64,000 bases of DNA from positions 930,001 to 994,000 of the forward strand of contig NZ_CP054492.1 of assembly GCF_015265455.1 (NCBI RefSeq), in the 5' to 3' direction. A program made the position numbers and the translations under genes. Positions within the stretch are counted from its first letter, which is position 1; every line of letters starts with the position of its first letter. Positions 1,425 through 6,422 of this stretch are shown here, in pieces. The notes under the pieces were generated by a model, which worked only from the letters and a program-made list of their open reading frames with translations, was not told the DNA's origin and did no database searches. Origin of the DNA: Candidatus Sulfurimonas baltica. Lineage in GTDB: Bacteria; Campylobacterota; Campylobacteria; Campylobacterales; Sulfurimonadaceae.

Positions 1425-1524
1425 TTATACTTTTTCCCAAAAAATCCCCTGCTGCGTATCCATAATACTAACACCCAAGGCTAAAATCTAATCACGAAGT
1501 TTGTTAGAACTCTCAAAGCCTTTT
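1425..1524 (-). pseudogene. decayed 3' end of a second cysS copy
   Basis: Read leftwards this matches the last 32 or so codons of the intact cysS at 2205: LRD-stop-ILALGVSIMDTQQGIFWEKV against LRDEILALGVSIMDTPNGTFWEKV. The conserved Glu codon has become a stop (TAG). The copy differs from the resident gene at several residues, so it is either an old duplicate or was left by exchange with a related strain. No 5' part of the gene is present. Confidence 0.75.
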
Positions 1525-1525
1525 T

Positions 1526-1674
1526 GATTATCTTGAAGCTCTCCCACTACAACTTCGCTTGGACTCCCTTTAATATATCTTCTCTAAATAACCAAAGTTT
1601 TGTGCCTACATGTAGAGATGGAATCTTTCAACCCTCATAAAGTCCGCCACGCCATGAAAAAGCCTTTTAAATCC
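1526..1674 (-). pseudogene. decayed partial copy of the methyltransferase gene
   Basis: Bases 1526-1625 are nearly identical to 607-706 of the methyltransferase gene, and 1628-1674 to about 807-853, so about 100 bp between the two parts is deleted. Several point changes and a 1-base loss break the frame. It directly abuts the cysS remnant, giving an artificial order of cysS 3' end then methyltransferase piece. Confidence 0.75.
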
Positions 1675-1690
1675 AATGCTATTATGTGTT

Positions 1691-2230: not shown

Positions 2231-3605
2231 TTGGTGTGTCCATTATACTAACACCTAAGGCTAAAATCTCATCACGAAGTTTGTCTGAAGTTGCAAAATC
2301 TTTTGCTTTTTTAGCTTCATCTCTTTGCGAAATCAACATGTCGATTTTTTCTTTTGTATCTTCATCAACTCCGAACTGAAAGTACTCAAAAGGATTTTTA
2401 AACCCAAAACCAAGAACTTTTTCTATGTACGATAGATTAGAGATTGTCTCACGCTTAAGCTCTTTATGTTTACCGGTAGTGTCTAAAGTTTCGTTTGCAT
2501 TTGAAATCATCTCATCAATAAGAGCCAAGGCACTCGATACATTCATGTCATCACTCAGTACATGTAAGAGTTCATTATGAAATGTAGTTTGGTCAGAGTT
2601 TTGGGCCAAACCAAATAGACGTTTTTTAAGTCTATATATTTTGTCTAGTCTCTTTTTCGAAGATGCTAAATCTTCAGTGTTAAAGTTGAAGTTACTTCTA
2701 TAGTGAGTGCTTAAAAGGTAAAAGCGCAGAACCTCTCCGTCATACTCTTTTAGGGCATCTTTTAAGAAAAAGCTGTTTCCTAAAGACTTAGACATTTTCT
2801 CTCCATCTATATTTACAAAACCGTTATGCATCCAGTAGTTCGCAAGTTCATGGTTAGTTGCACATCTAGTCTGTGCAGCTTCGTTTTCATGGTGTGGGAA
2901 AAGCAAATCTGCTCCACCACCGTGGATATCAACAGCAAACTCAGCATTTGGCTTTGCAAGATGTTTTTCAATCATCGCAGAACATTCCAAATGCCAACCC
3001 GGACGACCTGCACCAAAAGGGGAAGGAAATGTAATAGTGTTGTCTTTTACGCTCTTCCATAGAGCAAAGTCAGCAGGGTTCTTTTTAGCAGATGAACTCT
3101 CAACTCTTTGTTGCTTCTCATCCTCATCTTGAACTCTTGAAGATAGTTTTAGGTACTCGCTGTCACTTGCGGTATCAAAGTAAACATCTCCCTCATCAGT
3201 TCTGTAGGCGTGGTTAGAGTCTATAAGCTTTTGGATTAACTCAGTCATAGCTTCTAGTGATTCTGTAGCTTTTGGTTCAATTGTTGGACGTGATACACCG
3301 ATAGCCTCCATCTCTTTATGAAAAGCATCTGTATAGTAGTCAGTAATCTCTTTAATATCTTTGTTTTGCTCAACTGCTTTTTTAATGATTTTATCGTCAA
3401 TATCAGTAATATTTCTCGCATAAGTTACATCGTAACCATTAGCAGTTAGCACACGGGTTAGCAGGTCAAAAACCAAAGCACTCTTTGCATGACCTAGGTG
3501 GGCATCGTCATAAACGGTAGGTCCGCATACGTAAAGAGAGGCTTTCCCATCTTCTAACGGAATAAACTCTCGTTTTGTTTTTTGTACTGAATCGTAAATA
3601 TACAT
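2205..3605 (-). CDS. cysS: cysteinyl-tRNA synthetase
   Basis: 466 aa, normal length for the family. It charges tRNA-Cys with cysteine in the cytoplasm. The class I signatures are clear: CGPTVYDDAHLGHAK near the N-terminus (zinc-ligand Cys and the HIGH-type HLGH motif), GGGADLLFPHHENE with further zinc ligands, and EKMSKSLGN (KMSKS loop). The start ATG follows AAGGAAAATAACT. In Campylobacter, as I remember it, cysS lies next to murJ; here about 1.4 kb of relic-integron DNA separates them. Confidence 0.97.
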   Translation of the reverse strand: MYIYDSVQKTKREFIPLEDGKASLYVCGPTVYDDAHLGHAKSALVFDLLTRVLTANGYDVTYARNITDIDDKIIKKAVEQNKDIKEITDYYTDAFHKEMEAIGVSRPTIEPKATESLEAMTELIQKLIDSNHAYRTDEGDVYFDTASDSEYLKLSSRVQDEDEKQQRVESSSAKKNPADFALWKSVKDNTITFPSPFGAGRPGWHLECSAMIEKHLAKPNAEFAVDIHGGGADLLFPHHENEAAQTRCATNHELANYWMHNGFVNIDGEKMSKSLGNSFFLKDALKEYDGEVLRFYLLSTHYRSNFNFNTEDLASSKKRLDKIYRLKKRLFGLAQNSDQTTFHNELLHVLSDDMNVSSALALIDEMISNANETLDTTGKHKELKRETISNLSYIEKVLGFGFKNPFEYFQFGVDEDTKEKIDMLISQRDEAKKAKDFATSDKLRDEILALGVSIMDTPNGTFWEKV

Positions 3606-3620
3606 GTAGTTATTTTCCTT

Positions 3621-3710
3621 TTAAAAACCAGTTGTCATAAAGTCAACTGCCGAGATAATTTCATCTCTTTTATCTTTTACTGAACAGACTACAGAACCTA
3701 GATTTTCCAT
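3621..3710 (-). CDS. possible 29-aa ORF just upstream of cysS
   Basis: A short frame, ATG at 3710 and TAA at 3621, begins MENLGSVVCSVKDKRDEII and ends 15 bases before the cysS start. The Shine-Dalgarno is weak. It could be the end of a broken gene from the relic integron or a chance ORF. I do not recognise it. Confidence 0.2.
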   Translation of the reverse strand: MENLGSVVCSVKDKRDEIISAVDFMTTGF

Positions 3711-3734
3711 AGAAATACCCGCTTGGTTTCTATG
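3708..3734 (-). repeat. hairpin just after the relE-like toxin gene
   Basis: Perfect 8 bp inverted repeat (CATAGAAA / TTTCTATG, loop 11) starting 3 bases past the toxin stop. It stands where the attC site of the second integron cassette should be, but no clear GTTRRRY core follows. It may be a terminator or a degraded attC. Confidence 0.45.
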
Positions 3735-3736
3735 TT

Positions 3737-3988
3737 TTAGTATACTTCTTTTCTATGGGCTATTCTGATAAGGGTAATCACCAAAATATCATTTTCTTTT
3801 AAATATACTATTCTGTAATTCCCAGCTCTTTTTCTAAACTTACCTTTGTGTTTTCCCTTTAAAGCTTTGTCTGCTGTAAAGACTCCTTTTTCAAGGTCTT
3901 TAATTTTGAAAAAAATAAGTTTTTGATTTTCAGAGTCTATCTTTTCTAGCTCTTTAAATGTAGCTTGAGGAATTATGATTTTGAACAT
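3737..3988 (-). CDS. RelE/ParE-family toxin
   Basis: 83 aa, a typical size for this family. The sequence shows the RelE/ParE fold pattern: FKELEKIDSENQKLIFFKI helix, LKGKHKGKFRKRAGNYRIVY strand-rich basic core, and a C-terminal LVITLIRIAHRKEVY strand. Members cut mRNA on the ribosome or block gyrase; the Arg/Lys-rich core here fits an mRNA-cutting RelE. The start overlaps the antitoxin stop by one base (TAATG), so the two are co-translated. The pair forms the second cassette of the relic integron. Confidence 0.85.
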   Translation of the reverse strand: MFKIIIPQATFKELEKIDSENQKLIFFKIKDLEKGVFTADKALKGKHKGKFRKRAGNYRIVYLKENDILVITLIRIAHRKEVY

Positions 3989-4215
3989 TAATTAAGACCA
4001 AGTCTTTGTGCAACTTCTTCTAGTGAATATACTTCAGTTTTTCCAGCTTTAAGTTCATCAATTCTTTTATCAGAAATCATTTCATCCAATGTGTCAAAAT
4101 ATGTACTAACAGCTTTTTCTATGATATATGTTCGCGACCGGTCTAATTCATGAGCATATGAATCTAAATCAGTTAATAACAGTTCATCCATACGAATATT
4201 AATTGCTTTTTTCAT
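3988..4215 (-). CDS. RHH-type antitoxin of the relBE-like pair
   Basis: 75 aa. The N-terminus KKAINIRMDELLLTDLDSYA followed by RSRTYIIEKAV is a ribbon-helix-helix DNA-binding domain; the C-terminal EEVAQRLGLN part would bind the toxin. It should neutralise the toxin encoded downstream and repress its own promoter, which is well formed at 4237-4265. The start follows AAAAGGATACAAC. A gene pair carrying its own promoter is the usual form of toxin-antitoxin cassettes in integrons. Confidence 0.8.
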   Translation of the reverse strand: MKKAINIRMDELLLTDLDSYAHELDRSRTYIIEKAVSTYFDTLDEMISDKRIDELKAGKTEVYSLEEVAQRLGLN

Positions 4216-4236
4216 GTTGTATCCTTTTGTATCTAC

Positions 4237-4265
4237 ATTATACTACAAAAGTTGATAAATTTCAA
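4237..4265 (-). promoter_or_regulatory. sigma-70 promoter of the toxin-antitoxin pair
   Basis: TTGAAA (-35) and TATAAT (-10) are separated by exactly 17 bases, 22 bases before the antitoxin start codon. Confidence 0.75.
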
Positions 4266-4271
4266 GCATGA

Positions 4272-4339
4272 ATCTAACGTTTGTATAGAGCTATTAAGTG
4301 ACCGCTAGGTAACTTATTAGCTCCTATGTTTTGTTATGG
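4272..4339 (-). other. integron attC recombination site
   Basis: Read leftwards the 68 bp site starts with R'' CCATAAC and ends with R' GTTAGAT, which fits the GTTRRRY core exactly. Between them the L boxes pair as ATAGGAGCTA with TAGCTCTAT, leaving one extra unpaired G, the expected extrahelical base. Unpaired spacers of 5-6 bases lie between the R and L boxes. The stop codon of the preceding gene is inside R'', as is common in cassettes. The R'' box is the exact complement of the first bases of the cassette (GTTATGG at 4812-4818), as expected for the free circular form. Confidence 0.85.
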
Positions 4340-4817
4340 ATTTATTTTTTCATATACATTACCAACTGCTTGTTTTCCTTTTGAAAATCTCATCAATGAA
4401 ATTGAACCTTTATCGATATTGGCTTTTTTCAAATCTTGATTAAAATAATCACATTTAGCACTATCAATTTGCTTATTATCTCTAAAATAAGAAATTACAC
4501 CATTTTCAATTTTATATGTATCACCTTGTGGTACCTCTAACAACTCAAAAGCTTTTTTAATATCAAATGAATTATCACGAGAATATGAATAGAGTGATCT
4601 TATTTCATTGTTCTTTTTAAATACCAAAATTTGATTTTTCATTAAAAAATGACTTAAGCTATCTTTTGAATCTTTATCAATTAATTTTATATGTGTTACT
4701 GACCATGTACCAATTAAATCATTCTTAGTACATTTTCGTACAACTTCATCTGCATTAATAAAATTTAAAAAAATTATGCTTACTATTAAAATAAATTTCA
4801 TACTTTTTACTCCATAA
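4278..4817 (-). mobile_element. intact 540 bp integron gene cassette
   Basis: The cassette runs from the G/TT cut at 4818/4817 (the GTTATGG site next to the integrase stump, i.e. the attI side) to the G of the attC R' core at 4278. It carries one gene, in the normal orientation opposite to the integrase. Its attC R'' (4333-4339) pairs perfectly over 7 bases with the R' that would form on excision. Confidence 0.8.
4334..4801 (-). CDS. secreted hypothetical protein in integron cassette
   Basis: 155 aa. A hydrophobic N-terminus (KFILIVSIIFLNFINA, then DE) is a Sec signal peptide without a lipobox Cys, so the product is periplasmic. The mature part begins CTKNDLIGTWSVTHIKL; the LIGTW motif resembles the opening of small lipocalin-like domains, which is only a hint. 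Two Cys (in RKCTK and AKCDY) could form a disulfide. The Shine-Dalgarno GGAG comes from the first bases of the cassette. Function unknown. Confidence 0.75.
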   Translation of the reverse strand: MKFILIVSIIFLNFINADEVVRKCTKNDLIGTWSVTHIKLIDKDSKDSLSHFLMKNQILVFKKNNEIRSLYSYSRDNSFDIKKAFELLEVPQGDTYKIENGVISYFRDNKQIDSAKCDYFNQDLKKANIDKGSISLMRFSKGKQAVGNVYEKINP

Positions 4818-4956
4818 CTATTTATTCAACGAACATTTTATCATAATAACATACAAGTAACATAAATAAATAACACGGTAAATGTGTGTTAATAAATTAA
4901 ATTTAGTTAAAAATATGACAATTTGTCATAATGTTGCTTAAGTGAAAGGATTGATA

Positions 4957-5025
4957 ATGAGTTTGAAAAAGAAGCTTCTTGATATTGTTCGTGATAAAAC
5001 TAGGTTTAAATATCTCTACATGTAG
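4957..5025 (+). pseudogene. 22-codon stump of an integron-type tyrosine integrase
   Basis: The frame MSLKKKLLDIVRDKTRFKY matches, from memory, the N-terminal helix of integron integrases (LL-x2-VR-x2-IR-x-KHYS pattern) and then ends in a stop two codons later, where the murJ gene begins on the other strand. The start has a good AAAGGATTGATA ribosome site. Its direction, away from the cassettes on the left, is the standard intI layout. The rest of the gene is lost. Confidence 0.7.
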
Positions 5026-6422
5026 ATTTGAATAAAGTCTTTAAAAAGCACAAGTCCTATGGTAAATGCGACAGAACCAACGACAAGGTAGATGGCATTT
5101 TTATTTCGAAGTATATCAAAAAAGTTTTTTAGACCGAATGCTTTTATGGTAAGCGTAAAGCCTACTAAACCGCTGATTGTCCCTGCAAGAGCTAAACCAC
5201 TTGCTCCCATTGGAGAGATAAGAGTTAGAGCAAAGAGAATGTATGAAGCTAGGGAAAATGTTGCTATTTTTGCGGCACGAAGTTGTTGCTCTTTTGCGTA
5301 TAACCATAATAAGAATAGTTTTTGAAGACCATACGGGAGAAGTCCAATCATATACATTTGAAGTACTAGTGAAGTATTTGCCGTATCTTGTGCAGCAAAA
5401 GAACCTCTCTCAAAAAGTAGCCAAGTAATCTCCTTTGAGAGAACGACTCCTCCAATGGCACTGGCTGTGAGTAAAAATGTTAAAAACCAGAAGGCTTTTT
5501 TCAGGTATGCGAGGGCTTTAGCTTCATCATTATTTTTTATATATCTGGCAACACTCGGAAAAAGGGCTATGGAAGTAGCTATAGCAAAAAGAGCAAGGGG
5601 GAGTTGAAATATACGGTTTGCATAGTAGAGATAACTGATTGAGCCAGTTACTAAAAAAGATGCCAAGAAGGTGTCTAAAAATGCACTCACCTGAGGGGTA
5701 GAATTGCCCCAAATTGCAGGAAAAAACTGTTTTTTGAATTTTCTTGTCTCATTTTTGATTTTTATTGACTTGTTTTTTAAATATTTAAAGCCGCCACATG
5801 TAAGCTTGTACAGACCCAACCTTTGTATAGCTATCATATGTGCAAAGAGCTGCAAAACTCCTCCGATAACTACGCCAAAACTAAGGTAATAAACTATCTC
5901 ACTTTGGCTCTTGTCCTCAGAGAGATACAGAGCTAAAATGAGTGAAATATTTAGCAGAGCAGTCGAGAAAGCAGTAGTTGCAAAATGGTGCTTATATTGG
6001 AGCAGAGTACTTAAAAAAGTGACTGAAAATATAAGCGGAAGATACCAAAAATTTATAGCAACATAAGGGGAAGCTATCTCTACTGTTTTATCATCAAAAC
6101 CAACGGCTATAGCTTGTGTTGCAAGACTTGGAAGAAGATTTACAAGCAAAGTAATAACTACTATAATTGATAAAAAAATTACAAAGATATTTGCTACAAA
6201 AACTGATTTGTGTTTAGACCTTGCATAGGCCGGAATAAAGACTTGGGTAAAAGCACCCTCTGCAAAAATTCTTCGAAAAAGATTTGGTAGCTTAAAGGCT
6301 ATAAAAAATATATCACTATAGACGTTTGCACCAAGAGTTGAAGCGGTCAGTAAATCTCTTAAAAATCCTAGAATTCTTGAAAATAAAATTCCAAAACTAT
6401 TGGTAAAAATTGCTTTAAACAT
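5016..6422 (-). CDS. murJ: lipid II flippase MurJ
   Basis: About 468 aa from the ATG at 6422 (FKAIFTNSFGILFSRILGFLRDLL), the conserved MurJ N-terminus with the SRILGFLRD motif. The frame is open further upstream but that part is not MurJ-like and would run into the divergent gene. The protein is almost entirely hydrophobic with about 14 membrane helices and contains the GAFTQVFIPAY and RIF motifs of the MviN/MurJ family. It flips lipid II across the inner membrane for peptidoglycan synthesis. Its last codons lie in the palindrome CTACATGTAG, so the integrase stump on the opposite strand ends in the same Met-stop. Confidence 0.93.
   Translation of the reverse strand: MFKAIFTNSFGILFSRILGFLRDLLTASTLGANVYSDIFFIAFKLPNLFRRIFAEGAFTQVFIPAYARSKHKSVFVANIFVIFLSIIVVITLLVNLLPSLATQAIAVGFDDKTVEIASPYVAINFWYLPLIFSVTFLSTLLQYKHHFATTAFSTALLNISLILALYLSEDKSQSEIVYYLSFGVVIGGVLQLFAHMIAIQRLGLYKLTCGGFKYLKNKSIKIKNETRKFKKQFFPAIWGNSTPQVSAFLDTFLASFLVTGSISYLYYANRIFQLPLALFAIATSIALFPSVARYIKNNDEAKALAYLKKAFWFLTFLLTASAIGGVVLSKEITWLLFERGSFAAQDTANTSLVLQMYMIGLLPYGLQKLFLLWLYAKEQQLRAAKIATFSLASYILFALTLISPMGASGLALAGTISGLVGFTLTIKAFGLKNFFDILRNKNAIYLVVGSVAFTIGLVLFKDFIQIYM

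Follow-up and report, generated by a model that had tools for sequence, protein, structure and literature searches.

An integrase-less relic of a chromosomal integron at the murJ-cysS locus of Candidatus Sulfurimonas baltica

The DNA between murJ and cysS in Candidatus Sulfurimonas baltica is very probably what remains of a sedentary chromosomal integron whose integrase has been deleted. The locus covers positions 3633-5025 of the window, the 64-kb stretch C1:930001-994000 of a closed 2.74-Mb genome whose nearest named relatives are Sulfurimonas species; murJ ends at 5016 and cysS starts at 3605. An earlier note had described a relic integron in this region, with its parts in the standard order and direction. 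All of these parts are present, at coordinates that are exact or off by a few bases, and the reading is borne out by an attC covariance model, by the match of the integrase stump to integrases and by a sister species (G032) that retains an intact intI at this position. We found no evidence against it. On the minus strand, from murJ to cysS, the order is attI core, an ORF of 155 aa, attC, antitoxin, toxin and a CcdB C-terminal remnant that is absent from the earlier description of the locus; a frame of 22 codons on the plus strand heads towards murJ. The features are as follows.

5005..5016, no strand: junction of the intI deletion, with a single TTTAAA (two in G032, 916 bp apart)
4957..5010, plus strand: N-terminal 18 codons of intI, MSLKKKLLDIVRDKTRFK, matching integron-integrase N-termini
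4919..4941, no strand: junction of the leader deletion, with a single AACATTATG on the minus strand (two in G032, 124 bp apart)
4812..4835, minus strand: attI, GTTCGTTGAATAAATA-GTTATGG; the same motif lies near intI in ~40 loci
4278..4817, minus strand: complete 540-bp cassette (TTATGG ... G of R'), bounded by attI and attC
4334..4801, minus strand: cassette ORF, 155 aa, with an N-terminal hydrophobic stretch (by inspection)
4272..4339, minus strand: attC, with R'' CCATAAC, L'' ATA-G-GAGCTA, L' TAGCTC-TAT and R' GTTAGAT (R1 model)
4237..4265, minus strand: promoter TTGAAA-17-TATAAT, an 11/12 consensus match, conserved in homologous cassettes
3988..4215, minus strand: antitoxin, 75 aa, ribbon-helix-helix, RelB-like (NF048017, RHH_1)
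3737..3988, minus strand: toxin, 83 aa, ParE/RelE family, full length (PF05016)
3633..3727 (about), minus strand: CcdB C-terminal remnant ending in NLGSVVCSVKDKRDEIISAVDFMTTGF and a stop, matching the C-terminus of CcdB in G021

The stump ORF has 22 codons (4957-5025, plus strand, with its stop at 5025), as the earlier note had stated, of which codons 1-18 belong to an integrase and the last four are deletion junction and murJ-end sequence. Its N-terminus matches integron integrases, with E=4e-5 against the genome's own intact intI and E 5e-6 against that of G032, and the stump region is identical to the intact G032 gene at 82 of 87 nt. The integrase is destroyed, as claimed: its body has been deleted. 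A sedentary chromosomal integron demands intI beside attI, and the window retains 18 codons of it; attI is present, and the attC-bounded cassettes oriented away from intI are represented by one complete cassette in minus orientation. What the window holds thus derives from such an integron but is not self-sufficient.

G032 groups with the window at 99/97 support in the murJ tree, its murJ being 92% identical, and alignment of the two loci shows that the window corresponds to G032 with 916 bp (the intI body, between TTTAAA copies) and 124 bp (part of the leader, between AACATTATG copies) removed. The TTTAAA copies of G032 lie in the spacer between murJ and the 3' end of intI and in intI codons 17-18 (L035 positions 265 and 1181), and the junction reads CTACATGTAGGAATATTTAAAaat... 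in G032 and CTACATGTAGAGATATTTAAACCTAG in the window. An intI deletion common to G021 and the window was rejected, as the junctions differ and G032 is closer to the window yet intact. A target-site duplication, CTACATGTA (murJ end and cysS start), was also dropped, because the motif is found again at other places in the genome and the deletion model based on G032 accounts for the murJ side without duplication. Separately, a palindrome, TATGACAnTTTGTCATA, lies in the stretch from attI to intI of several platforms (window 4900-4930; L031 12697-12720) and may serve as a regulatory site for the integrase or the cassette promoter.

The insertion site GTTATGG (4812-4818, minus strand), in which crossover is expected between G and TT, is likewise borne out. 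Throughout the genus its core, AATAAATA^GTT, is kept next to intI, and at ~40 loci AATAAATAGTT or a close variant is found at a distance of ~250-280 bp from where intI starts. The corresponding distance is 263 bp in G032 and 140 bp in the window, the latter being short because of the 124-bp leader deletion.

To search for attC sites we used a covariance model (R1) built from 12 attC of relatives' arrays and of an intact array in the same genome, from which the site in the window was excluded. The training set shows strong stem covariation, with 94% of cells paired and 18 double changes where shuffles give 4.9, and the model also picks up, at 41.7 bits, a site in an array (L036) from a different family of the order. 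With this model, independent of the query site, the window attC scores 73.2 bits (E=1.9e-16 for the 64-kb window and 8.2e-15 for the genome), and its folding gives z=-3.9. Apart from the opposite strand of its own palindrome (27.9 bits), no further attC was found within the window at E up to 10. The orientation of the site follows from this difference in score and from the extra base in the R''-proximal arm. Its R''-spacer-L'' (AACAAAACATAGGAGC) is identical to that of one attC in the genome's intact array (L032 3092-3158), and its stem carries one mismatch relative to its nearest relatives. The extrahelical G that had been described is found on the cassette-coding strand, so the bottom strand has C. 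GTTAGAT fits the proposed GTTRRRY core while GTTATGG departs from strict GTTRRRY, though GTTATNN starts are common in the genus.

The proposed size of 540 bp for the cassette holds, bounded as it is by attI and attC. At 7/7 positions R'' (CCATAAC) is complementary to the first bases of the cassette (GTTATGG), a feature that the earlier note considered to be expected only for a real mobile cassette. The exact complement is confirmed, but not its exclusiveness: full complementarity between start and R'' was seen in 20/31 control cassettes and in 8% of mismatched pairs, and is therefore good, not absolute, evidence for a cassette. None of the 31 control cassettes starts with GTTATGG. The 155-aa protein has a weak lipocalin-like similarity below cut-off (PF13648, E=0.056), and its AlphaFold model is uninformative (pLDDT 39). 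A search of 134 other Sulfurimonas genomes, plasmids and viral contigs gave no clear relative of it and one weak partial match.

The toxin-antitoxin cassette (3737-4215) was said to have its own promoter, and both the pair and the promoter are there. The toxin scores 27.4 bits against PF05016 (cut-off 23), which places it in the RelE/ParE type II group; the antitoxin reaches 43.5 bits against NF048017 (cut-off 50) and 17.6 bits against RHH_1 (cut-off 20.5). Homologs of the toxin, ~80-90% identical, are found at varied positions in ~20 Sulfurimonas genomes/species. An attC starts 5-6 bp past the toxin gene in L245, L246, L235, L253 and L259, and another lies upstream of the antitoxin in L245, L235, L253 and L259, L246 being cut by a contig end. 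Judged by these homologs, RelBE is a genuine cassette, which would now be immobile. After the toxin gene the homologs read TAAAAGTCTAACAAAACATAG..., whereas the window reads TAAAACATAGAAACCAAGCGGG and then runs into CcdB, so that the attC of RelBE has been deleted. What the earlier note called a cassette has thus lost its attC and is fused to the ccdB remnant.

This remnant matches the CcdB C-terminus of G021 (L089 9581-9886) and also the ccdAB of the six integron-free species named below. A place for ccdAB among the members of the cassette array was rejected: ccdAB stands alone between murJ and cysS in L165, L167, L179, L180, L198 and L225 (gap ~625-665 bp), with no attC or intI between the two genes in these six species, so that it is a resident module and not a cassette. 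It is whole behind the cassettes in G021, reduced to a CcdA piece in G032 and to the CcdB tail in the window. Elsewhere, window 1430-1690 contains a degenerate duplicate of the cysS 3' end (cf. 2205-2300), followed by a duplicate of the sequence at ~598-820.

The earlier note had proposed to look for an intact intI at murJ in related genomes, and one was found. In G032 (L035/L099), murJ is followed after a 6-bp gap by an intact intI (322 aa) placed tail-to-tail, then by attI, three attC, a CcdA remnant and cysS. An integron or its remnants occur at murJ in at least seven other species. Between murJ and cysS, G021/L148 has a stump, attI, a cassette with attC and ccdAB; L151 has intI pieces (by inspection), a toxin-antitoxin pair and a CcdB tail; L158 has intI pieces; L162 and L199 carry the 112-aa cassette family of G032; and L163/G104 has a degenerate intI followed by a transposase-like gene. 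The last of these, inserted past the murJ-side intI relic (L163 11400-12800), belongs to Sulfurimonas sp. D96SM.bin.28 (G104). In many other species murJ and cysS overlap or abut. Across the genus, integrase N-termini are present in 67/135 genomes, and by our own count ~49 integrase frames are full length and ~38 short, some of the short ones from contig ends.

The identity of the relic can be weighed against the reading that the 540-bp unit is an off-target or chance hairpin beside an unrelated ORF, and not a cassette at attI. With one attC in the 64-kb window, the rule of at least two attC for clusters lacking an integrase (CALIN) would miss it, as this reading would have it; however, the 73-bit match, the 7/7 complement, the attI motif in the expected place, the integrase remnant and the intact orthologous integron of G032 leave it practically excluded. 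A larger, though still minor, probability goes to independent arrival of the integron at murJ-cysS in several species, the site being a hot spot. The carriers are scattered over the murJ tree, murJ and cysS abut in many species, and other intI copies occupy many loci, all of which suits repeated arrival; yet the surviving or remnant intI at murJ always has the same place and orientation, and the 112-aa first cassette recurs at murJ in G032, L162 and L199, with a fragment in G021. It is simplest to assume that a chromosomal integron has long been present at murJ-cysS and decayed repeatedly and independently. Its ancestral order was murJ, intI (on the opposite strand), attI, cassettes, ccdAB and cysS. 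After the split from G032, as alignment shows, direct-repeat deletions took away 916 bp with the intI body (at TTTAAA) and 124 bp of the leader (at AACATTATG), and a further deletion took the attC of the last cassette together with most of ccdAB. This left attI, the complete 540-bp cassette with its well-formed attC, and the RelBE-type cassette without attC.

The same chromosome carries an intact integron, 0.78 Mb from the relic (C1:1711576-1726738; L031 11576 to L032 6738), with a 334-codon intI frame, attI and nine attC (1718721-1726738) of the same family as the window attC. Its IntI (C1:1711576-1712574) scores 411 bits against TIGR02249 (cut-off 265) and has no stop; among solved structures it is closest to V. 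cholerae IntI4 (2A3V, E=5e-82), in the alignment with which the catalytic R, K, H-x-x-R, H and Y positions of tyrosine recombinases are conserved. The attI core of this integron, GTTCCTTGAATAAATAGTTGTG, is one base off the window core before the crossover. The gene directly past its attI encodes a protein of 962 aa, in which restriction-modification-like motifs were seen by inspection. The R1 model further revealed a second integron with broken intI fragments and three attC at 1291543-1294545 (C1:1289331-1294545; L033 9331-14545), a CALIN of three attC without integrase between transposase-like ORFs, as judged by inspection (C1:1094028-1095323; L262 4028-5323), and a singleton attC (C1:1463048-1463115; L263 5048-5115). 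The other genome-wide matches are the same palindromes reversed and a marginal one at 1655212 (E=0.19).

The earlier note held that the cassettes are fixed unless an integrase acts in trans. That condition is a live one, given the intact intI elsewhere in the genome, but RelBE is fixed regardless of any integrase because its own attC has been deleted; it would not be excisable and, through addiction, would tend to hold the relic in place. Because the intact IntI adjoins a near-identical attI core and attC of the same family, its action on the 540-bp cassette is plausible, though somewhat less likely than not: the enzyme at 1.71 Mb could still excise or replace this cassette at the window attI, and could capture new cassettes there. 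More tentatively, and on balance doubtfully, the murJ site may be an orphan docking platform fed in trans, with one integrase serving several chromosomal platforms. The case for trans activity is weakened because the 155-aa protein lacks a clear relative in the collections searched, and the different cassettes of G032 could predate the intI loss. That the relic is wholly frozen, with neither the 540-bp cassette nor RelBE moving and the intact integrase not acting here, has a nearly even chance. The lost attC of RelBE and the mismatch in the attC stem of the 540-bp cassette are consistent with it, as are the stable arrays that accompany intI losses in Xanthomonas (PMC12444791); on the other hand, the window attI and attC are almost base-for-base those beside the intact intI.

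Strictly, the relic is neither a CALIN nor an In0. In the definition given in PMC10295459, CALIN are attC clusters lacking an integrase (their origin is discussed in PMC8618304), and the relic resembles them in having an attC-bounded cassette without an adjoining integrase, but differs in its single attC within 64 kb and in the attI and integrase stump that it keeps. For In0, an integrase without attC, the window has an integrase of 18 codons and an attC. Integrase-dead integrons are already known. In Xanthomonas the integrase has been inactivated at a conserved site in many lineages, and the ilvD-intI locus is similar in being fixed beside a housekeeping gene with its integrase inactivated, cassettes remaining and CALINs elsewhere in the genome (PMC12444791). 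Here, however, the phylum and the locus (murJ-cysS) are different, an intact second integron lies on the same chromosome, and attI and one complete cassette survive with 18 integrase codons. The relic is thus ordinary in kind, and its anatomy is well documented. Campylobacterota are among the listed integron carriers (PMC8618304), and for Sulfurimonas autotrophica, of the same genus, an IntegronFinder table reports In0 and CALIN, that is, an integrase and attC clusters; the table comes without the anatomy, locus or orthology given here for the window (PMC10295459). Active integrases carry a fitness cost (PMC3510236). The toxin-antitoxin cassettes of the V. cholerae superintegron resemble RelBE in having their own promoters, and their excision is harmful to the cell (PMC11023631); here a single pair sits in a tiny relic and has lost its attC. 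No description of a murJ-cysS integron was found in the literature searched, and an Rfam search of 3500-5200 returned sub-threshold chance matches alone.

The deletion endpoints document the death of a chromosomal integron through deletions between short repeats, in a phylum for which descriptions of integrons are scarce, and remnants of this kind, with one attC and no integrase, fall outside the usual integron classes. cysS is an essential gene, and no terminator-like site was found in front of it; cassette gain or loss in the array before it may therefore alter cysS transcription. The integrase-less platform shares its chromosome with an intact integrase whose attI core is near-identical, and the genome thereby offers a natural test of cassette exchange in trans.
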